Source: Chryseobacterium joostei
GTDB lineage: Bacteria > Bacteroidota > Bacteroidia > Flavobacteriales > Weeksellaceae
NCBI RefSeq assembly: GCF_003815775.1
Contig: NZ_CP033926.1
Coordinates: forward strand, 3,286,001 to 3,350,000
Direction of reading: 5' to 3'
Length of the DNA stretch: 64,000 nucleotides
Of the stretch, positions 4,299 through 15,455 are shown piece after piece. Numbering within the stretch: position 1 is the first letter of the stretch; each line of letters starts with the position of its first letter. A program made the translations under genes and the position numbers. A model generated the notes under the pieces. It saw nothing but the letters and a program-made list of their open reading frames with translations, was not told the DNA's origin and did not search any database.

Positions 4299-4804
4299 GG
4301 TAATGCGTTAATTAAATGTTCTACTTCTGTTTTCTGTTCTTCATATTTTTGTTGTAAGACTGAGTTTTCACCCATTCTTTTATAATATTCCAAAGCCTTG
4401 TTTCCAAAGAATTTTTTATGAAAATCTGAAACCTCAGGGACCTTTGGGAAAACCTTATGAAAAAGCATCTCGTAATAGGCCTGAAACTCTCTTTCATTTT
4501 TGTCTTCGATCACCTGTCCGGGAGCCTTTTGTCTTACGTGAAGCATTTCGTGGGCTACCATATTCAGGACAAGATTCAGGTCAAAATCAAATAAATTTCT
4601 GGGAATCATTACGGTTTGTGGCCCGCCCAATTCTCCCTCTGCTGTAAGAAGCATTGAGGTGGGAGAAAGCTCTTCCCTGAATCCAAAACCCGCAAAATTT
4701 TCATGTTCCAGATTAAAGGAGTGAATCAGATACTTTGCGGCATCCAAAATCTGGTTATGTTCCTTGTAGGCATCAAGGTGTAGATGGATTTGCTCGAAAT
4801 TCAT
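4295..4804 (-). CDS. Putative zinc-dependent protein with HEMLH motif
   Basis: A 169-residue cytoplasmic protein of no family I recognise. Residues 84-93 read AHEMLHVRQK, an HExxH zinc-protease signature (His85, Glu86, His89), and a Glu in NEREFQAYYE about 20 residues later could be the third ligand, as in gluzincins and SprT-like proteins. There is no signal peptide or membrane segment. It is the first gene of the operon that continues with csaA, the exonuclease and the DUF59 protein. Metallopeptidase activity is inference from the motif alone. Confidence 0.72.
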   Translation of the reverse strand: MNFEQIHLHLDAYKEHNQILDAAKYLIHSFNLEHENFAGFGFREELSPTSMLLTAEGELGGPQTVMIPRNLFDFDLNLVLNMVAHEMLHVRQKAPGQVIEDKNEREFQAYYEMLFHKVFPKVPEVSDFHKKFFGNKALEYYKRMGENSVLQQKYEEQKTEVEHLINALP

Positions 4805-6575: not shown

Positions 6576-7400
6576 TTAATCTATGTTTAAAGGAATTGAT
6601 AATAAAGGCACTTTATTTTTGTACGCCATGATGGCGGTTTTGCTTCGGTGAAAAAGAGACTCCACAAGGTTGTATCTGTAAGGGATCATGGTAAGCAGAT
6701 CAGCATTGGTAAGCTTAACTTCTTCTTCGATGGCTTTGATGATTTCCATAGACTGGGTCATTTTAAAACTGTACTTAATATCGTCCATGTTGTATCCCGA
6801 ATTTAAGTCGATGTCTTCAATGACTTCTGTAAAATCCTCCAGACTTTCGCTTACATTGAATACCTCTATCTCGGAACTGAATTCACTGATGAAATAATAA
6901 ATATCATTCATGGCAGACCAGGTCATGGACTTGTGGTTATCATAAGCAAAAAGAATTTTTCGGATGCCTGTATATTCTATATGCCCGGGAACAATCAATA
7001 TAGGGGTTTTTATCCTGTGGATGGCTTTCGTTACTGTATTTCCCAATAGCCTTTGCTCAAGCGTTTTTTCTGCCATTCCCATAACAATGAAATCGCCCTT
7101 GGTGGTTTGTATACAATTATTAAGCTCTTCAATAAAGTTTCCTGAGGCCAGATAATATTCTGTTTCTATATTGTATAATGTACTGATTGTTTTTGCCTTA
7201 TCAGCAAGTTTTATTTGATTTTTAAGGGTTTGTTCATAAAAAAAATCAGTAGAAACCTGGGCATTCAAAGCATGAATGGAAATGCTCTGTAAGTTGAACA
7301 GAACGACCTTATATTGGTTCTCCTTAGCTATGGAGGCCGCATAATGAGTGGCATTTTCAGCTTCCTGAAAAAAATCTGTGCAGACAATTATAGTTTTCAT
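6576..7400 (-). CDS. Universal stress protein with two UspA domains
   Basis: A 274-residue tandem UspA protein. Domain 1 (about residues 1-140) begins MKTIIVCTDF and ends in the ATP-binding G-rich loop GNTVTKAIHRIKTPILIVPG; domain 2 (about 145-274) begins IRKILFAYD and has a degenerate second loop, HRSKTAIMAYKNKVPLLSIP. Such proteins help survival under nutrient or oxidative stress. The start has a TAGTTTTG promoter box 20 bases upstream and a paired direct repeat (7482-7513) that matches the one in front of the RND efflux operon, so it may be controlled by the neighbouring LytTR regulator. Confidence 0.9.
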   Translation of the reverse strand: MKTIIVCTDFFQEAENATHYAASIAKENQYKVVLFNLQSISIHALNAQVSTDFFYEQTLKNQIKLADKAKTISTLYNIETEYYLASGNFIEELNNCIQTTKGDFIVMGMAEKTLEQRLLGNTVTKAIHRIKTPILIVPGHIEYTGIRKILFAYDNHKSMTWSAMNDIYYFISEFSSEIEVFNVSESLEDFTEVIEDIDLNSGYNMDDIKYSFKMTQSMEIIKAIEEEVKLTNADLLTMIPYRYNLVESLFHRSKTAIMAYKNKVPLLSIPLNID

Positions 7401-7419
7401 TGTACCGGATTTGATACTG

Positions 7420-7427
7420 CAAAACTA
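7420..7427 (-). promoter_or_regulatory. TAnnTTTG promoter box of the universal stress gene
   Basis: On the minus strand TAGTTTTG lies 20 bases upstream of the ATG at 7400. This is an exact match to the Bacteroidota -7 consensus at the right distance for a short leader. No TTG is seen at the usual -33 spacing, which fits a promoter that needs an activator. Confidence 0.6.
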
Positions 7428-7481
7428 AGGCGGGATGCCTTTCTATCTCATTAAAAATATGGTGACATTGCATAAAGTGAT

Positions 7482-7513
7482 GATGAAATGTATTTTTCTG
7501 GTGATGAAACGTT
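7482..7513 (-). promoter_or_regulatory. Candidate LytTR operator: 21-bp-period direct repeat
   Basis: Reading the minus strand, AACGTTTCATC starts at 7513 and TACATTTCATC starts at 7492, exactly 21 bases apart (two helical turns). The pair points toward the universal stress gene; its proximal repeat ends 82 bases before that ATG. The same core occurs with the same spacing before the efflux operon (9647-9678). LytTR-domain regulators bind paired direct repeats of this layout, and a LytTR gene sits next door. Binding is inference. Confidence 0.6.
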
Positions 7514-7603
7514 GGCTTCCATTTGAACCTTTCTATTGTATGTTTCAGGTCGCGTTTTGGCGGTCTCGTTCAAAATAGGCCATTCCTTTCTAAAATCTAT
7601 TTC

Positions 7604-7611
7604 TATATTTA
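7604..7611 (+). promoter_or_regulatory. Probable promoter box of the kinase gene
   Basis: TATATTTA is one base off the TAnnTTTG consensus and is 20 bases upstream of the ATG at 7631. It supports that start over the longer open frame from 7523, which would begin upstream of the promoter. Confidence 0.4.
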
Positions 7612-7630
7612 CACTCACAAAGTCTCGGAT

Positions 7631-8749
7631 ATGAGTAGGGTTTCGACCATTAGAAAAAATATAGTACGGAGTAAAAAAATACTTTCTGCAATGAAAAGGA
7701 GGCTGGTGATCTGGGCTGTAGCTGTCATTGCTTTTTGTGGCTTTTCTTATCTGATTGACCCCTTTGATCCCGTTTGGCAAGGATACTTAGAGACTCCGTT
7801 GCAAATGGTAATTGAAGATGCCCTTTGGGTACTTCTTTTTTCGGTAATCATCTCAGAGGTTAGTATATTCATAGATTTGACCCTTAATAAGTTACTTCCT
7901 TGGAAAGATCGTACGATAAAGCGATTACTAATCCAGGGGTTTCTTCAGATTGTAGGAAGTGTCCTGATCGTTATGATCATTAATGCTATTGTAGATTGTA
8001 CCTCAGACAACTTGCCGGAAATGGATTCCAGAAAAGAATATACATTATTAGGGCAATGGGTAGCCACCAATATTGTGATATCCCTTATCATCAGTGGATT
8101 TAACACGGTGGATTATTTACTTCAAAACTGGAAAAAAACAGCCGTAGAAGCTGCCCAGCATAAAGTAAGGGCTTCCAAGCATAAGCAGGCAGCAATGGCC
8201 GCAGAACTTCAGGCACTTAAGCTACAGATAGACCCGCATTTTATCTTTAATAATCTCAGTGTTTTGTCGGAACTTATTTTGGAAGACCAGCAATTGGGGT
8301 ATGAATATTCAGAAAAATTTGCAAGAGTATATCGATATCTTCTGGTGAATTCCAAAAAAGACATCATTGTCGTAGAAGAGGAACTAAAGTTTTTGGATTC
8401 TTATATTTTCCTGATTGAAAAAAGAATTGGTGAGGGAGTAATATTTAAAATTGATATTCAGGATAAGTACAGATCTATGTACACCCTTCCATTATCCCTA
8501 CAGTTATTGGTTGAAAATGCAATAAAGCACAACCAAACCTCAAAGGCAAATCCACTGGAGATTCATGTATATACAAATTCTATCGGCGAACTGGTTGTTT
8601 CCAATACGTTTTTACCACTGATTAATAAGCCGGATTCCTCAGGAGTTGGCCTTACCAATATCATCACAAGATATGAGATTCTGGGGTACACAAAACCGAT
8701 AATAGAAAAAACTGAAGATAAATTTATTGTAAAACTTCCATTGATATGA
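7631..8749 (+). CDS. LytS/YpdA-type membrane sensor histidine kinase
   Basis: Sensor kinase of the His_kinase (PF06580) family that pairs with LytTR regulators. With the start at 7631 it has 372 residues: four hydrophobic segments (around residues 24-43, 62-82, 100-118 and 142-162), a coiled linker, then LQIDPHFIFNN with the phospho-accepting His near 203, and an ATPase domain with N-box LLVENAIKHN and G-box GVGLTNI. There is no separate sensory domain, so the signal is probably sensed in or near the membrane. The open frame extends to 7523, but a promoter box at 7604 argues against that. Its stop overlaps the regulator start by ATGA. Confidence 0.9.
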   Translation: MSRVSTIRKNIVRSKKILSAMKRRLVIWAVAVIAFCGFSYLIDPFDPVWQGYLETPLQMVIEDALWVLLFSVIISEVSIFIDLTLNKLLPWKDRTIKRLLIQGFLQIVGSVLIVMIINAIVDCTSDNLPEMDSRKEYTLLGQWVATNIVISLIISGFNTVDYLLQNWKKTAVEAAQHKVRASKHKQAAMAAELQALKLQIDPHFIFNNLSVLSELILEDQQLGYEYSEKFARVYRYLLVNSKKDIIVVEEELKFLDSYIFLIEKRIGEGVIFKIDIQDKYRSMYTLPLSLQLLVENAIKHNQTSKANPLEIHVYTNSIGELVVSNTFLPLINKPDSSGVGLTNIITRYEILGYTKPIIEKTEDKFIVKLPLI

Positions 8750-9510
8750 AGATTAATAAAATTTTAATAGTCGAGGATGAAAGGCCCAATGCAGATAGGC
8801 TGAAAAGACTATTGCTAAAGCTAAGACCCCATATTGAAATATTGTCCGTAGAAGATTCAATTACATCTACGGTAAACTGGTTGGAAAACAATGTGGTGCC
8901 GGATGTTATTATGATGGATGTTCGTCTGGCAGATGGGTTAAGTTTTGAGATCTTTAATAAACATGAAATTAAAAGTGCAGTAATATTCACAACAGCCTAT
9001 GATGAATATGCGGTACAGGCTTTTAAATATAACAGCATCGATTATCTTTTAAAACCTATAGATGAAGAAGAGTTGGATGCCGCTCTCAAGCGCTACGAAA
9101 CCTTTATGGAATCTGTTCCCGTAGTAGGCTCAGCAATAGAGGGCTTACTCAATTATATCCAGCCGAAAGATTATAGAAAACGTTTTCTCATTACACACCG
9201 TGATGGCTATAAAACGGTTTTAGCAGAAGACATTTTATACTTTTATACAGAACTGGGAATGAGTAAGGCAATGCTAAATACAGGTATTGTAGAGAATATT
9301 CCGCAAACATTGGAAGAGCTTGAAAAACAACTGGATCCGAAATTCTTTTTCAGGGCAAACAGACAATTTATAATCCATATAGATTCTGTAAAACAGATCT
9401 TCAATCACTTTAATGGTAAGCTTAAACTGGAACTCAGAAAACAACCGGAAATGGAAGTTATCGTAAGCAGAGAAAAAGCATCCATATTCAAATCCTGGAT
9501 GGATTATTAG
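8746..9510 (+). CDS. LytTR-family response regulator
   Basis: A 254-residue regulator with an N-terminal receiver domain (acidic pair in VEDE near residue 10-12, phospho-acceptor Asp58 in IMMDVRLADG, Thr83 in FTTAYDEYA, Lys103 in LLKPID) and a C-terminal LytTR DNA-binding domain (about 145-254, ending FFRANRQFIIHIDSV ... VIVSREKASIFKSWM). All phosphorylation residues are intact. Cotranscribed with the kinase (4-base overlap) and followed by a terminator, then by the RND operon. Candidate target sites are the direct repeats at 7482-7513 and 9647-9678. Confidence 0.93.
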   Translation: MKINKILIVEDERPNADRLKRLLLKLRPHIEILSVEDSITSTVNWLENNVVPDVIMMDVRLADGLSFEIFNKHEIKSAVIFTTAYDEYAVQAFKYNSIDYLLKPIDEEELDAALKRYETFMESVPVVGSAIEGLLNYIQPKDYRKRFLITHRDGYKTVLAEDILYFYTELGMSKAMLNTGIVENIPQTLEELEKQLDPKFFFRANRQFIIHIDSVKQIFNHFNGKLKLELRKQPEMEVIVSREKASIFKSWMDY

Positions 9511-9534
9511 TTAGAAAATAAACATACATTATAT

Positions 9535-9563
9535 AAAAAGCTGTCTTATTAAGGCAGCTTTTA
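9535..9563 (+). terminator. Terminator after the LytTR gene
   Basis: Stem of about 12 bp (arms 9535-9547 and 9551-9562, one G-T wobble) with a 3-base loop and T-rich tail. It separates the two-component pair from the efflux operon, so the latter needs its own promoter. Confidence 0.75.
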
Positions 9564-9646
9564 TCTTTTCCATACGTAAGCAAAAAGCGCTATTTAATGG
9601 TTCTGAATAGAGTGAAAAGCTCCCTTTCCTTTCATTTTTGGTATCA

Positions 9647-9678
9647 TACGCTTCACCTGCGATTAATTACGTTTCACC
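9647..9678 (+). promoter_or_regulatory. Candidate LytTR operator upstream of the efflux operon
   Basis: TACGCTTCACC (9647-9657) and TACGTTTCACC (9668-9678) are direct repeats that match at 10 of 11 positions and are exactly 21 bases apart, start to start. They end 68 bases before the ATG of the membrane fusion protein and about 34 bases before a degenerate -7 box (TATTTTG, 9713-9719). The weak core promoter and phased repeat fit a site for an activator, most simply the LytTR regulator encoded just upstream. Confidence 0.68.
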
Positions 9679-9746
9679 AGATTTTTAGATGAATATCCCT
9701 ATTATATGAATTTATTTTGCTGTTGTAAAATTTAAAATCAAATGTT

Positions 9747-10865
9747 ATGAATTACAGAAAAGGATATCTGGCACTTTCACTTACAGCAGCAGTAATACTG
9801 TACTCCTGTGGTTCTGGGAACGGTCAGGAAAATGCCCAACAGCAGCCGGCACTTCCTACCGACTTTATCCAGGTGAAATCCGGAAATGCAGATGTTTCTA
9901 CGGGATACCCGGGAAGTATAGAGGGACAGGATAATGTAGACATTAAGGCTCAGGTAACAGGATACCTGGAAGCTGTATATATAAAAGAGGGACAATACGT
10001 GAGCAAGGGGCAAACCTTATTTAGGATTAACCCATCCGTATATAATGAGCAGGTTAATACCAATGAAGCTGCATTAAAAGCCGCATTAGCTTCTCAGGAA
10101 ACAGCAAGACTAGAAGTTGAAAAATTAAGACCATTGGTAGAAGGAAAAGTTGTTTCCGATATGCAGCTGAAGACAGCACAGGCAAGTCTTAAGGCCGCAT
10201 CAGCACAAGTGGCACAAGCACAGTCTTCATTGGGTTCCTCAAAGATCAATGCGAACTTTACCTATATCAAGGCACCGGTGAGCGGATACATAGGAAGAAT
10301 CCCGAACAGGGTAGGAAACCTCATCAGTCCGTCTGACCCGTCTCCATTAACAACGCTTTCAAACATCAGTAGTGTAAATGTTTACTTCTCAATGAACGAA
10401 GCAGACTTTATTGCCCATAGCAGAGCTGCAGCTTCAGGTGGAAGTGTAGACAACGTAGAACTTGTTTTAGCAGACGGATCCACCTACTCATTCAAAGGAA
10501 AGCTGGAAAATGCCAGTGGAAACTTTGATAAAAATACAGGAAGTATTCAGATGAAAGCAGTTTTCCAAAATCCTGATAAGTTGCTAAGATCAGGAGGAAC
10601 CGCCAGAGTGATGCTTCACAATGCATTGGATGGGGTTGTCAGGCTTCCAAAGACTTCGGTAAAGGATATTCAGGATAAATTCTTTGTCTATAAACTTGAA
10701 GGTAAAGATAAAGTGAAGATGACTCAGATTGAAGTATCAGGAAGCACATCTCAGGATTACTTTGTAAAAAATGGAGTGAATGCAGGAGATAAAATTGCAA
10801 TCAATAGGATAGATGCCCTTACAGATGGGGCTCCGGTTGCAGCTAAAGTGATTCCTTCAAAATAA
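9747..10865 (+). CDS. RND efflux periplasmic adaptor (membrane fusion protein)
   Basis: AcrA/MexA-type lipoprotein that links the inner-membrane pump to the outer-membrane channel. Signal peptide with lipobox LYSC at residues near 18-21, then the lipoyl half-motif DIKAQVTGYLEAVYIKEGQYVSKGQTLFRI, a coiled-coil hairpin (about 100-165, NTNEAALKAAL ... KAASAQVAQAQSS), the second lipoyl half with IKAPVSGYIGRI, and beta-barrel and membrane-proximal domains. 372 residues, usual for the family. First gene of a three-gene operon with pump and outer-membrane factor, 29 bp before the pump gene. Confidence 0.94.
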   Translation: MNYRKGYLALSLTAAVILYSCGSGNGQENAQQQPALPTDFIQVKSGNADVSTGYPGSIEGQDNVDIKAQVTGYLEAVYIKEGQYVSKGQTLFRINPSVYNEQVNTNEAALKAALASQETARLEVEKLRPLVEGKVVSDMQLKTAQASLKAASAQVAQAQSSLGSSKINANFTYIKAPVSGYIGRIPNRVGNLISPSDPSPLTTLSNISSVNVYFSMNEADFIAHSRAAASGGSVDNVELVLADGSTYSFKGKLENASGNFDKNTGSIQMKAVFQNPDKLLRSGGTARVMLHNALDGVVRLPKTSVKDIQDKFFVYKLEGKDKVKMTQIEVSGSTSQDYFVKNGVNAGDKIAINRIDALTDGAPVAAKVIPSK

Positions 10866-10894
10866 TTTTATAATCATTCTTAGAAAATTCGAAA

Positions 10895-13800
10895 ATGTTA
10901 AAAAAGATAATAGATCGTCCGGTACTGGCGACAGTAATATCCCTTATTATTGTCATTTTGGGGATCATAGGACTGAACCAGCTGGCAGTTACCAGATTTC
11001 CGGATATTTCTCCACCCACTATTACGGTTTCCGGTTCTTATCCGGGAGGAAACAGTGAAACGGTCATTCGTTCCGTGGTAACTCCGTTAGAAGAACAAAT
11101 TAATGGAGTGGAAGACATGAGCTACATGAAATCCACAGCAAGTAATGATGGAACATTTACAATCTCTGTTATATTCAAGCAAGGAGTCAATGCCGATCAG
11201 GCAGCAGTCAATGTTCAGAACAGAGTACAGCAGGCCACTCCGATACTGCCTCAGGAGGTGGTAAGGATGGGATTAACAACCTCCAAGCAGCAGAACAGTA
11301 TGGTATTGATTTTCAATATTTATACTGAAGACAATAAACTGTATGACGAAACCTTTCTTCAGAACTATGCCAATATCAACCTTATCCCGCAGATCAAAAG
11401 GGTAAAAGGAGTAGGACAGGCACAGATTTTCGGAGTTAAGGATTATTCCATGAGAATTTGGCTTAATCCACAGAAGATGTCCTCTTATGGGCTTGAACCG
11501 TCAGATGTTTCCAATGCTATTGCAGATCACAGTTTAGAATCTGCTCCCGGTAAATTGGGTGAAGAATCTGATGCCGCTTTGGAATATGTTATCAGATATA
11601 AAGGGAAAAAGAATAAACCGGAACAATACGAAAATATCGTTGTTAAAAATGATGGCAGCAATGTAATCAGGCTTAAAGATGTGGCCCGTGTAGAATTTGG
11701 ATCCATCAATAACAGTGGAGATAACCTTTCCAATGGTAAAAATGCGGTTACGGTGGCCATTATGCAGACTACAGGATCCAATGCCAATGAAATTGAAATC
11801 GGAGTAAATAAAGCTATTGATCAATTATCGAAGTCATTTCCTCCTGGGATAAAATACACCAAGGTAATGAGCACCAAGGAAAGACTGGATGAAGCAACAG
11901 GACAAGTAAAATCTACCCTGATAGAAGCATTTATCCTAGTATTTATTGTGGTATTTATCTTTTTACAGGATTTCAGATCTACCATTATTCCTGCAATTGC
12001 AGTGCCTGTAGCCATTATTGGTACATTCTTCTTCCTTTTGGTATTAGGATTCACCATCAATGTATTGACATTGTTTGCCCTTGTACTGGCCATTGGGATT
12101 GTCGTCGATGATGCCATTGTAGTAGTGGAAGCCGTTCACAGTAATATGGAAGGAACAGACCTTTCAGGACGAGATGCCACCCACAAGGCGATGAGTGAAA
12201 TTACAGGAGCTGTTATTTCAATTACGCTGGTAATGTCTGCGGTATTCATTCCTATCGGGTTTATGTCAGGTTCGGCAGGATTATTTTATAAGCAGTTTGC
12301 CTATACATTAGCCATTGCCATTATTATTTCAGCAGTGAATGCCCTTACTTTAACACCGGCTTTATGTGCTGTATTTTTGAAAAACCATCATGCAGAAGAA
12401 AGCGGAAAACCAAAAGGTTTCGGGCAAAGATTTGCCGTTGCATTTAACGCAGGATTTAGTAACATGACAGACCGTTATGCAAAAGGAGTACGATTTTTAA
12501 TTGGACGCAAATGGATCGCAGCAGGTTTGGTAGCAGGGATTATAGGATTGTCAGCATGGCTTATGACAAGTACAACCAAGAGTTTTGTTCCAATGGAAGA
12601 TGACGGATTCTTTATCTATTCATTAAGTATGCCGCCAGGAACGGGATTAACAAAAACGACTGAGGTTTCCAATAAGATCAATGCCATTTTAAAAACAGTA
12701 GACGCTGTTGAGGAAAATACATCCATTACAGGATTCAACCTGTTGAGTAACAGTGCGGGACCAGCCTATGCCATGGGGTTTGTAAAATTAAAACCTAAAA
12801 AGGAAAGGGGTAGCGTTCAGGATATTGACGAAATCATGAATATCGTTAATGGAAAGTTGTCTGTAATCAAAGAAGGAAGTGTTATGAGTTTCAGAATGCC
12901 GCCGGTAGAAGGATATGGGGTGACAAATGATGCCGAGATTGTTCTTCAGGATCGTATGGGTAGAGATCCACAGGTTCTTAAGGCAAAGGCAGATGATGTA
13001 ATTGGGCAGTTAATGCAGGTTCCGGAAGTTGCCTACGCCTATACCATGTTTAGGGCAGATTATCCTCAGTTGGAGCTTGAAGTAAATGAAGATAAAGCGA
13101 AGCAGTTAGGAGTAAGCATTGCTAATTTATTGGGAACAGTACAGACCTATTTCTCAGGAGATCAGTCTCAGAACTTCTCAAGATTCGGAAAGTTCTATAG
13201 AGTAAATATAAAGGCTGACGGTGTTTTCAGAATGGATGAGCAGGCGTTCAATGATATTTTTGTCAAGAATAATAAAGGCGAAATGGTTCCCGCCAATACC
13301 TTAATCACTTTGAAAAAAGTATATGGTCCAGAATCCGTTCAGCGATATAATCTTTACAATTCTCTTAATATCAACGTGGTACCGAAACCAGGAATCAGTA
13401 ATGGAGCCTTGATGGATAAAATTGAACCTACATTGAATAAACTTCCATCCGACTACAGTTATGAATGGACAGGATTAAGTTTGGAAGAGAAATCAGCAGG
13501 AAGTCAGACTGTTGTCATTCTGGGATTATGTTTACTTTTCGTTTATCTGCTTCTTGCAGCCCAGTACGAAAGTTATATTCTTCCTTTGGCAGTAATGCTT
13601 TCCATCCCAACAGGAATTGTAGGAGCCTTCCTTGGAATAAAAGCGATAGGACTGGATAATAACATCTATGTACAGGTAGGATTAATCATGCTTATTGGTC
13701 TACTGGCCAAGAATGCAATCCTTATTGTAGAATTTGCTGTCCAAAGAAGAAAATCAGGACTTTCCATTCTAGATTCAGCATTGGAGGGAGCAAAGGCAAG

Positions 13801-14053
13801 GCTGCGCCCCATCATTATGACCTCACTGGCCTTTATTGTAGGGATGATTCCATTGATGATCTCTACCGGAGGAATGGCTTCAGGAAATAAATCCATCAGT
13901 GTAAGTGCTGCAATAGGAATGTTGAGCGGAGTTGTTCTGGGAGTATTTGTAATTCCTGTACTGTATATGTTCTTCCAATATCTGGATGAAAAATTTTCAT
14001 CCAAAAAGAAGTATCCCGTAATCCAAAATCAATTGACAAATGAAAATATTTAA
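10895..14053 (+). CDS. RND multidrug efflux permease (HAE1 type)
   Basis: Proton-driven inner-membrane pump of the AcrB/HAE1 family. 1052 residues with the usual twelve membrane helices in two halves, two large periplasmic loops and the N-terminal motif FPDISPPTITVSGSYPGGN. Helix 4 holds the proton-relay pair Asp405-Asp406 in IGIVVDDAIVVVEAV; GLLAKNAILIVEFA in the second half is the matching helix 10. It overlaps the outer-membrane factor gene by 14 bases. Substrates cannot be read from sequence; drugs, bile-like compounds or dyes are usual for the family. Confidence 0.95.
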   Translation: MLKKIIDRPVLATVISLIIVILGIIGLNQLAVTRFPDISPPTITVSGSYPGGNSETVIRSVVTPLEEQINGVEDMSYMKSTASNDGTFTISVIFKQGVNADQAAVNVQNRVQQATPILPQEVVRMGLTTSKQQNSMVLIFNIYTEDNKLYDETFLQNYANINLIPQIKRVKGVGQAQIFGVKDYSMRIWLNPQKMSSYGLEPSDVSNAIADHSLESAPGKLGEESDAALEYVIRYKGKKNKPEQYENIVVKNDGSNVIRLKDVARVEFGSINNSGDNLSNGKNAVTVAIMQTTGSNANEIEIGVNKAIDQLSKSFPPGIKYTKVMSTKERLDEATGQVKSTLIEAFILVFIVVFIFLQDFRSTIIPAIAVPVAIIGTFFFLLVLGFTINVLTLFALVLAIGIVVDDAIVVVEAVHSNMEGTDLSGRDATHKAMSEITGAVISITLVMSAVFIPIGFMSGSAGLFYKQFAYTLAIAIIISAVNALTLTPALCAVFLKNHHAEESGKPKGFGQRFAVAFNAGFSNMTDRYAKGVRFLIGRKWIAAGLVAGIIGLSAWLMTSTTKSFVPMEDDGFFIYSLSMPPGTGLTKTTEVSNKINAILKTVDAVEENTSITGFNLLSNSAGPAYAMGFVKLKPKKERGSVQDIDEIMNIVNGKLSVIKEGSVMSFRMPPVEGYGVTNDAEIVLQDRMGRDPQVLKAKADDVIGQLMQVPEVAYAYTMFRADYPQLELEVNEDKAKQLGVSIANLLGTVQTYFSGDQSQNFSRFGKFYRVNIKADGVFRMDEQAFNDIFVKNNKGEMVPANTLITLKKVYGPESVQRYNLYNSLNINVVPKPGISNGALMDKIEPTLNKLPSDYSYEWTGLSLEEKSAGSQTVVILGLCLLFVYLLLAAQYESYILPLAVMLSIPTGIVGAFLGIKAIGLDNNIYVQVGLIMLIGLLAKNAILIVEFAVQRRKSGLSILDSALEGAKARLRPIIMTSLAFIVGMIPLMISTGGMASGNKSISVSAAIGMLSGVVLGVFVIPVLYMFFQYLDEKFSSKKKYPVIQNQLTNENI

Positions 14054-15455
14054 TATAAAGAATTTCCTTATTTCAGGCGCAATGGCATCAGTACTGGTGT
14101 CCTGCGCCGTAGGGAAATCCTATACAAGAACAGATCTTCAGGTGCCGGAAACCTATAGAGAATCTGTGCAGGTAACAGGAGATACAATGGTGCTTCCATG
14201 GAAGACTTTCTTTAAGGATCCTAAGTTGATTGGCTTAATAGATAAAGCCTTAACACGAAATAACGAAGTGAATGTTGCCCTGAAAAACATAGAACAACTG
14301 AATCTTGTCTACAAACAGGCCAAGTTATCCCTAATGCCTACTTTGGACTTCACTGCTGGAGCCAACCGTAGCTGGGCATCCACAAATACCCTTAACGGAT
14401 CGCTGAATGAGCAGTTTGTAGGAACCAAGTATATGGATGACTTTAGTGCGGCCCTAAGACTTTCATGGGAAATTGATATCTGGGGGAAAGCCAAGATGCA
14501 GAAAGAATCTGCTGCTGCAGAGTATTTTGCCCAAAAGGAAAATCTAAATGCTGTAAAAAGCAGGATTATTGTTCAGGTAGCACAGGCTTATTATAGCCTG
14601 ATAAGCTTAGATGAGCAGTTGAAAATTGCAGAACAGAATATTGAATTAAGCAACAATACCCTTAAAATGATGGATCTTCAGTTTAAGGCAGGGCAGATTA
14701 ATTCATTGGCTGTGCAGCAGTCTGAAGCGCAGAAAAAGACTGCTGAACTATTGATTCCGTTGGCCAAGCAGAATATTTCCGTTCAGGAAAATGCACTGAG
14801 CATCCTTTGTGGAGAATATCCAGCTAAAATTGAAAGAGAAGGAAATCTGAAAATGATGATTCCTGAAAATAAACTTTTACAGGGTCTTCCCGCTCAGCTG
14901 TTAAGCCGAAGACCGGATCTAAAAGTAGCAGAATTTAATGTCATCAGTCTGAATGCAAAAACAGGATTGGCCAAAGCTGCGATGTACCCAAGTATCAGCC
15001 TGAGCCCACAGATTGGTGTGAATTCCAATAAATTTAGTTCATGGTTTGATATCCCGGGATCTATTACCAAGGCAGTTGCAGCAAATCTTGCCGCTCCTAT
15101 TTTTCAGAAAAAAGAATTAAAAACAGCTTATGAAACGGCTTTAATTGAACAGGAAAAAGCAGCAATTAACTTTAAACAATCAGTAATGACTGCTGTTGGA
15201 GAAGTTTCTGATGCCATGGCAAAGTCTCAGGGTTCATCAGAAAGACTACAGCTTTTAGAACAGAGAACGGCTATTTTAGATAAAGGCATCAATGATGCAC
15301 TAAAGCTGTATAAAAGCGGAATGGCAACCTATCTGGAAGTCATCACAGCCCAGAACAATAAGCTTCAGAATGATCTGGAGGCCATTAATGTTACCCTTGA
15401 AAGATTAAATGCTGAGGTTGACCTTTACAGGGCGCTTGGCGGTGGGGCAGAATAA
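14040..15455 (+). CDS. RND outer-membrane factor (TolC/OprM, NodT family lipoprotein)
   Basis: Outer-membrane channel of the tripartite pump. 471 residues: signal peptide with lipobox VLVSC (Cys near residue 22), then two OEP repeats with the long alpha-helical barrel segments; RRPDLKVAEFNVISLNAKTGLAKAAMYPSISLS is the conserved OprM-type signature. It overlaps the permease gene by 14 bases and is followed by a strong terminator at 15475, which closes the operon. Confidence 0.94.
   Translation: MKIFNIKNFLISGAMASVLVSCAVGKSYTRTDLQVPETYRESVQVTGDTMVLPWKTFFKDPKLIGLIDKALTRNNEVNVALKNIEQLNLVYKQAKLSLMPTLDFTAGANRSWASTNTLNGSLNEQFVGTKYMDDFSAALRLSWEIDIWGKAKMQKESAAAEYFAQKENLNAVKSRIIVQVAQAYYSLISLDEQLKIAEQNIELSNNTLKMMDLQFKAGQINSLAVQQSEAQKKTAELLIPLAKQNISVQENALSILCGEYPAKIEREGNLKMMIPENKLLQGLPAQLLSRRPDLKVAEFNVISLNAKTGLAKAAMYPSISLSPQIGVNSNKFSSWFDIPGSITKAVAANLAAPIFQKKELKTAYETALIEQEKAAINFKQSVMTAVGEVSDAMAKSQGSSERLQLLEQRTAILDKGINDALKLYKSGMATYLEVITAQNNKLQNDLEAINVTLERLNAEVDLYRALGGGAE

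Follow-up and report, generated by a model that had tools for sequence, protein, structure and literature searches.

A phased three-part repeat upstream of an RND efflux operon in Chryseobacterium joostei, very probably the operator of the adjacent LytTR response regulator

The repeat in front of the RND efflux operon of Chryseobacterium joostei is, judged from sequence and its conservation, very probably where the neighbouring two-component regulator docks. We hold with good confidence that this LytTR regulator directly activates the pump and a stress gene, and probably itself, as a small local regulon; binding, activation, autoregulation and the signal are parts of this reading which we infer. 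The region 9626-9719 of the window (the whole stretch of 64,000 nucleotides analysed) would be the control region of the RND operon, with three LytTR half-sites brought onto one face of the helix by their 21-bp period. This putative operator would sit at a constant 33 nt from the predicted sigmaA -7 box downstream of it and be bound by the regulator encoded at 8746-9510. Phosphorylation of the regulator by the kinase would lead to co-operative occupancy of the array and recruitment of RNA polymerase. An array also precedes the divergent universal stress protein (USP) gene, and a weaker one the kinase-regulator operon, so that the sensor, its regulator, the pump and the stress protein may constitute a small self-contained, probably self-amplifying local regulon.

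The features of the locus are compiled in Table 1. Adaptor, permease and outer-membrane factor follow each other in one row from 9747 to 15455, as in a tripartite RND efflux operon. The regulator combines a receiver (PF00072, 48.4 bits, curated cut-off 30.2) with a LytTR DNA-binding domain (PF04397, 61.3 bits, cut-off 22.6) and thus is a response regulator of the LytTR type. The adjoining kinase gene (PF06580, 68.2 bits, cut-off 25.2) overlaps the regulator gene. Receiver residues E10, D11, E12, D58 and K103 are kept in 20 out of 20 relatives, and the closest named relative of the regulator in the genome-contig scan, from C. aurantiacum F30, is 99% identical. The regulator structure used was a predicted model with a mean pLDDT of 79.4 and a pTM of 0.48, a value at which the arrangement of the domains is untrustworthy. 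Foldseek ranked full-length ComE (4cbv) first for this model (E 1.8e-13) and matched the LytTR domain 3d6w at a TM of 0.82 by target length, over that domain. A sequence search of the PDB with the single regulator gave 18 sequences with receiver-domain matches only; LytTR relatives were recovered by profile and fold searches.

Table 1. Genes and predicted regulatory features of the pump, USP and kinase-regulator locus (window positions).
Feature	Sequence	Position	Strand	Remarks
USP gene		6576..7400	-	PF00582
Predicted USP-promoter -7 box	TAGTTTTG	7420..7427	-	exact consensus; 33 nt past half-site 3
USP array half-site 3, degenerate	GCAATGTCACC	7461..7471	-	21-bp steps
USP array half-site 2	TACATTTCATC	7482..7492	-	21-bp steps
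USP array half-site 1	AACGTTTCATC	7503..7513	-	21-bp steps
Kinase array, weak phased flanks		7518-7528 and 7560-7570	+	21-bp phase
Kinase array, one strong half-site	TATGTTTCAGG	7539..7549	+	mostly TACGTTTCAnn in relatives
Predicted -7-like box, kinase-regulator promoter	TATATTTA	7604..7611	+	33 nt after 7570
Histidine kinase		7631..8749	+	PF06580; N-terminal half hydrophobic by eye
Response regulator, receiver and LytTR DNA-binding domain		8746..9510	+	PF00072, PF04397
Pump array half-site 1	TTCCTTTCATT	9626..9636	+	TTCAT invariant in 48/48 rows; 21 bp from half-site 2
Pump array half-site 2, repeat copy 1	TACGCTTCACC	9647..9657	+	AC and TTCA invariant in 48/48 rows
Pump array half-site 3, repeat copy 2	TACGTTTCACC	9668..9678	+	TTC in 48/48, TTCA in 46/48 rows
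Predicted pump-promoter -7 box	TTATTTTG	9712..9719	+	33 nt past half-site 3 in 48/48 rows
RND periplasmic adaptor (MFP)		9747..10865	+	TIGR01730, PF16576
RND permease (AcrB-type)		10895..14053	+	PF00873, TIGR00915
Outer-membrane efflux protein		14040..15455	+	PF02321, TIGR01845

The initial annotation had described a direct repeat at 9647 and 9668, 21 bp apart, and the letters bear this out exactly: TACGCTTCACC and TACGTTTCACC are separated by 21 bp from start to start and differ in 1 of 11 positions. It had taken the repeat for a pair and missed a third half-site, which lies 21 bp further upstream. The array therefore consists of three half-sites in 21-bp steps (9626, 9647 and 9668) with the invariant core TTC, and can be read as 11-nt repeats with 10-nt spacers or as 9-nt cores with spacers of 12; both are direct repeats of 9-11 nt with a period of about 21 bp, the format of LytTR operators. 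By eye, TACGTTTCA agrees with the broad LytTR consensus [TA][AC][CA]GTTN[AG][TG] at the first six positions and differs at the last two. In one flavobacterium the sigmaA -7 box is TAnnTTTG at -12 to -5, as given in the accessible part of PMC9723704, and TTATTTTG deviates from this consensus by one mismatch. The pump transcript is accordingly predicted from sequence to start near 9724; coordinate arithmetic centres the three half-sites at about -51, -72 and -93 relative to this predicted start.

When the intergenic region 9511-9746 was shuffled 5000 times with its dinucleotide composition kept, 0.54% of the shuffles had an 11-mer pair with at most one mismatch at exactly 21 bp, and 3.8% had one when seven spacings (10, 11, 20, 21, 22, 31 and 32) were allowed. 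At these rates the reported pair in the window alone is suggestive and undecisive, and the conservation data carry the case.

A scan of genome contigs resulted in 50 loci, of which 48 contained a clear relative of the regulator: 47 from Chryseobacterium and Elizabethkingia, the latter contributing one, and 1 from Sphingobacterium. L095 and L096 were dropped because their matches are not orthologues (24% identity; 65 residues matched). The pump alignment comprised 48 rows, the 47 loci plus the window, and was gapless and anchored on the pair. For L079 and L083 the automatic anchor had settled on half-sites 1 and 2, and their register was shifted by 21 bp by hand before counting. The Sphingobacterium locus L093, in which the pump is convergent and which holds only 109 bp upstream, stands outside these rows. 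According to the best tblastn segments, adaptor, permease and outer-membrane factor lie downstream of the regulator in the same orientation in 47/47 loci, with the outer-membrane gene truncated by the locus end in many loci and several genes of L089 matching only as fragments.

In all 47 loci the pair is located 67-70 bp before the adaptor ATG (L079 and L083 in corrected register). This includes nine loci (L048-L051, L053, L065, L070, L077 and L081) in which the gap between regulator and adaptor measures 1.05-1.34 kb versus 236 bp in the window. All six of these nine that were read contain a divergent gene starting with MKKF within the long gap, which in L048 encodes an outer-membrane beta-barrel by Pfam. 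Short plus-strand frames between regulator and adaptor, by eye resembling small multidrug resistance proteins, were seen at L079:6775-7107 and L094:6775-7140. Over the 48 rows the mean information was 1.65, 1.72 and 1.61 bits per base for half-sites 1, 2 and 3. The two spacers gave 1.19 and 1.54, the DNA downstream 1.26, and the 38 bases upstream of the array 0.47. The block is thus conserved from half-site 1 to the start codon and the half-sites most, with a sharp contrast only towards the upstream side, because the spacer between half-sites 2 and 3 and the downstream DNA are well conserved too. As the rows come mostly from one genus, these counts are inflated by shared descent. The initial annotation would have given up its proposal had the repeat been lost where kinase, regulator and pump are kept; the array was retained in 47/47 Chryseobacterium/Elizabethkingia loci and in 4/4 loci of another family.

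Strong arrays of this sequence are confined to the locus. Scoring with a matrix of 172 half-sites and 86 -7 boxes, from which the window and its near-twin L047 were left out, placed the pump array (49.2 bits) and the USP array (42.8 bits) at the top of the 64-kb window; the next independent site reached 1.0 bits and ten mononucleotide shuffles at most 4.1. Throughout the 4.89-Mb genome the pair pattern with 0-2 mismatches occurred at two sites only, both at the locus, and with up to 3 mismatches at 16 sites versus 7 for the reversed pattern. Other loose genome-wide pattern searches gave 13 versus 9 and 28 versus 22 sites. Such searches rise little above the reversed control, so the best hits alone were used; the six hits with 0-2 mismatches of the 28-versus-22 search include the pump array, the L114 array and two members of a dispersed TACAATTCGC type. 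A pair resembling AAATTTCATC...TACGTTTCACC that recurs in several genomes was considered as an extra target and dropped, its nearest counterpart in the own genome (L106) being located inside an open reading frame.

Among 98 genomes of the genus, regulator and adaptor orthologues (E below 1e-100) were found in the same 41. The pair pattern with at most one mismatch was present in 38 of these 41 (not in G009, G044 and G052) and in 4 of the 57 other genomes (G059, G071, G078 and G094), while the reversed control gave 0/98. The Fisher p of 4e-19 for this association is overstated, as the genomes are related and most of the sites are the locus itself. The 98-genome set consists partly of the same genomes as the locus set, so the two are not independent.

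The initial annotation placed a candidate site before the pump operon but was too narrow in scope, since similar sites precede the USP gene and, more weakly, the kinase-regulator operon. The USP pair is present in 42 out of 49 rows (48 loci plus the window), and TAnnTTTG follows at exactly 33 nt in 38 of the 42, the exceptions being L069, L080, L086 and L088. As in the pump array, where the 33 nt to the predicted -7 box hold in 48/48 rows, the position is a fixed one just upstream of the -35/-33 region of the predicted promoter. The pair is absent from seven rows (L076, L079, L083, L084, L085, L093 and L094), and in these seven loci no USP-gene match at E 1e-15 was found. A 9-mer pair matching the USP pair in quality at 21-bp spacing turned up in 2.6% of the shuffled versions of 7401-7630, so that this array likewise rests on conservation. 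In L071-L075 a USP-type array with its -7 box is retained on the minus strand at about 4675-4768; neither a USP gene nor a frame of more than 40 codons after the array on that strand was found in these loci. The retained array may serve a small RNA or the kinase promoter, or be a remnant.

The third array is probably, from its sequence, the autoregulation site of the kinase-regulator operon. In 41 of 48 rows it keeps the 33-nt distance to TATATTTA, in one case to TATCTTTA; seven rows depart from this (L069, L076, L079, L083, L084, L085 and L094). The count was obtained by choosing the best among all TAnnTTT[AG] candidates per row, a procedure biased towards a find. Its matrix score of 0.7 bits lies inside the range of the shuffles of the 64-kb window (maximum 4.1), so this score alone would not single the kinase array out.

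Three other explanations of the pump array were weighed. That it is a product of chance, or a functionless tandem duplication passively conserved, would agree with the occurrence of such a pair in 0.5-4% of intergenic shuffles. It is contradicted by the half-site cores and the 33-nt distance, which persist in 48/48 rows while the upstream DNA drifts, and by a second array of equal geometry; we consider it extremely improbable. Another regulator might bind the repeats, for example one of the 15 other LytTR-domain hits of the own genome (16 in total, 15 over the cut-off), the neighbouring system being merely close. A triple array of the CGTTTCAC type with the equal 33-nt geometry in front of a small multidrug resistance (SMR) gene beside another LytTR gene (L120) speaks for this, and the overlap of the cores between paralogues makes cross-talk possible. 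However, array, regulator and pump are co-inherited (41 of 98 genomes), and in the own genome the strong arrays of the pump/USP sequence do not occur outside the locus, which renders another regulator distinctly unlikely.

The array could also be the operator of the adjacent regulator with the opposite sign, the pump being repressed and derepressed on the signal. CoxC, a LytTR protein with three repeats, is a repressor in the accessible text of PMC11347149. Its repeats, however, overlap the -35 box, whereas a gap of 33 nt separates the end of half-site 3 of the pump array from the predicted -7 box; the array thus lies upstream of the -33 region, where activator sites are expected. Similar arrays before the own operon and the stress gene would also be better accommodated by activation. 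Repression thus appears unlikely, and by analogy with such sites the adjacent regulator probably acts as an activator of the pump rather than as its repressor.

The same geometry was encountered beyond the genus. A match at E 1e-60 or better turned up in 23 of the 246 genomes searched within the order. Seven of these, from family f3, belong to one genus (g10), which we infer to be Flavobacterium-like. In four loci of this family (L162, L163, L167 and L168) the pump adjoins the regulator, with regulators 53-54% and permeases 76-77% identical. All four contain TYCGTTTCAGT-N10-NNCGNTTGGGT followed by TTATTTTGC at exactly 33 nt; half-site 3 is altered (TTGGGT) and half-site 1 unrecognisable. In Sphingobacterium pump and regulator converge, and three TTC half-sites in 21-bp steps end 34 nt before TTATTTG, the final G thereby lying at the equal distance; this array was read from L217 with three offsets and a shortened -7 box allowed.

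Paralogous kinase-LytTR systems with regulators of 44-49% identity lie downstream of a different RND operon. The promoter of its adaptor has phased half-sites 33 nt (L128, L130 and L132) or 32 nt (L133, L171 and L172) before the -7 box; in L134, also of this cluster, the repeat is present without a match to the -7 box. Related regulators beside which no pump was found have arrays in front of genes of other kinds. In L160 three phased half-sites with the -7 candidate TTTCTTTG precede a catalase-family gene (PF00199), which is followed co-directionally by a second gene and a kinase-LytTR pair (L160:5412-9110). This system is possibly the oxidative-stress counterpart of the pump system. The array of L161 precedes a gene without Pfam match that is divergent from the kinase, and those of L137 and L139 precede the gene that, by position, is that of the kinase itself. 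A scan of 32 related loci for two half-sites and a -7 box at 32-34 nt detected arrays in 17 and none in the other 15 (L093, L129, L130, L131, L134, L135, L136, L138, L140, L141, L164, L165, L166, L169 and L170); in L093 and L130 the geometry is visible only under looser readings.

Spacing alone gives little for the other LytTR genes of the own genome. Intergenic 10-mer repeats around the 15 other LytTR loci peaked at 21 bp with 65 k-mer hits in 18 clusters, versus 12 hits and 6 clusters in 17 control stretches of the same genome. This peak is weak evidence. A dispersed 2 x 21-bp repeat in L118, which has no -7 box at 33 nt, accounts for 33 of these hits and 5 of these clusters, and the control stretches peak as well, at 14 bp (43 hits, 15 clusters). 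A generalisation to all LytTR genes of the genome by spacing was therefore rejected. The dispersed repeat is a tandem of two 21-bp units of the TACAATTCGC type, found at seven places that are all intergenic by frame calls, among them L118 (~C1:477358), C1:489392 and C1:1056149. Its spacer is conserved as well in the five L118 copies, and in the five copies checked no TAnnTTTG stands at 33 nt; it has the appearance of a repeat scattered between genes, not of LytTR sites.

With the full geometry, three arrays remain in the own genome beyond the pump, USP and kinase locus, one in L120 and two in L114. In L120 (7928-8442, near C1:708 kb) a set of three half-sites of the CGTTTCAC type with a 21-bp period ends 33 nt before TAATTTTG in front of the SMR gene (PF00893), which is convergent with another LytTR gene. 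By its sequence this is a candidate for a second LytTR-drug-efflux system. In L114 (3401-6232, near C1:3.23 Mb) pairs of the TACCATTCGG and TACCATTCAG types are located 33 and 32 nt before -7 boxes; the array at 33 nt fronts a gene for a 2TM protein upstream of the LytTR gene, the one at 32 nt a 2TM/His_kinase gene. L114 is a candidate self-regulating LytTR locus with a half-site sequence of its own.

RND pumps are a main route of intrinsic multidrug tolerance, and to our knowledge little has been learned about their induction in Bacteroidota. The map of pump, USP and kinase arrays names a putative operator, regulator and target set of inducible efflux in this phylum precisely, has a geometry that is transferable to related genomes, and is a possible key to other LytTR systems of Bacteroidota. 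We tentatively propose, at somewhat less than even likelihood, that Bacteroidota LytTR regulators share an operator grammar of two to three TTC half-sites (often TACNNTTCNNN) in strict steps of 21 bp. The last half-site would end 32-34 nt before the sigmaA -7 box, and the bases flanking TTC would distinguish one regulator from another. Were this true, the LytTR regulons of the phylum would be readable from sequence. The kinase-LytTR-RND modules of this locus, of its counterparts in the other family and in Sphingobacterium and of the paralogous clusters would then form a conserved family of self-amplifying inducible efflux systems.

Mutation of such modules could in that case explain an observation on F. 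johnsoniae coevolved with an antibiotic producer. As far as the accessible text of PMC10197871 goes, all five coevolved lines were mutated at this kind of gene, lines 2 and 5 in the LytTR gene FJOH_RS09515 and lines 1, 3 and 4 in the histidine kinase gene with the neighbouring tag FJOH_RS09520, and these mutations were absent from the monoculture lines. The same text reports other mutations in the coevolved lines, tolC among them, and its authors call the LytTR contribution unknown. Among the titles and abstract openings covered by our literature search, with most subscription journals outside its reach, no LytTR operator was described in Bacteroidota.

Among known LytTR systems, the first-ranked fold match of the regulator model, ComE of S. 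pneumoniae (4cbv), acts in competence. At 18% identity and a whole-chain TM of only 0.39 its domain arrangement is unmatched. In the YpdA/YpdB-yhjX system of E. coli, the kinase YpdA is of the LytS type and yhjX codes for a transporter. In the part of PMC4847170 available, LytTR sites are two 9-11-nt repeats with spacers of 11-13 nt and no common consensus, and YpdB binds a direct repeat of GGCATTTCAT and has one single target gene. The initial annotation had given this site correctly in its essentials, and YpdB is likewise a LytTR response regulator with tandem repeats. The pump array has the 21-bp period of such LytTR sites; the YpdB core CATTTCAT is also contained in the USP half-site TACATTTCATC. 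Unlike the pump array with its three half-sites and RND operon, the YpdB site has two, and its target is no RND operon.

For LytTR regulatory systems, the accessible text of PMC6193735 describes repeats of 9 bp, for the most part separated by 12 bp, that tend to lie 10 bp upstream of the -35 box, together with autoregulation. HdrRM and BrsRM of S. mutans resemble the pump system in such direct repeats shortly upstream of the promoter and autoregulate, but the partner of the regulator is an inhibitory membrane protein instead of a histidine kinase. Three direct repeats as in the pump array are reported in the available part of PMC11347149 for RcoM1, an activator with spacings of 12-13 bp and the core TTCNNGCA, which likewise begins with TTC, and for CoxC. 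In contrast to the two-component regulator studied here, both are one-component CO sensors, and CoxC represses. The layout shared with these published sites identifies the pump array as a LytTR operator by layout. This kind of operator is already known; added here are the phylum, the RND target, the triple arrangement that promoters of a single locus share, and a distance of strictly 33 nt to the -7 box of Bacteroidota.
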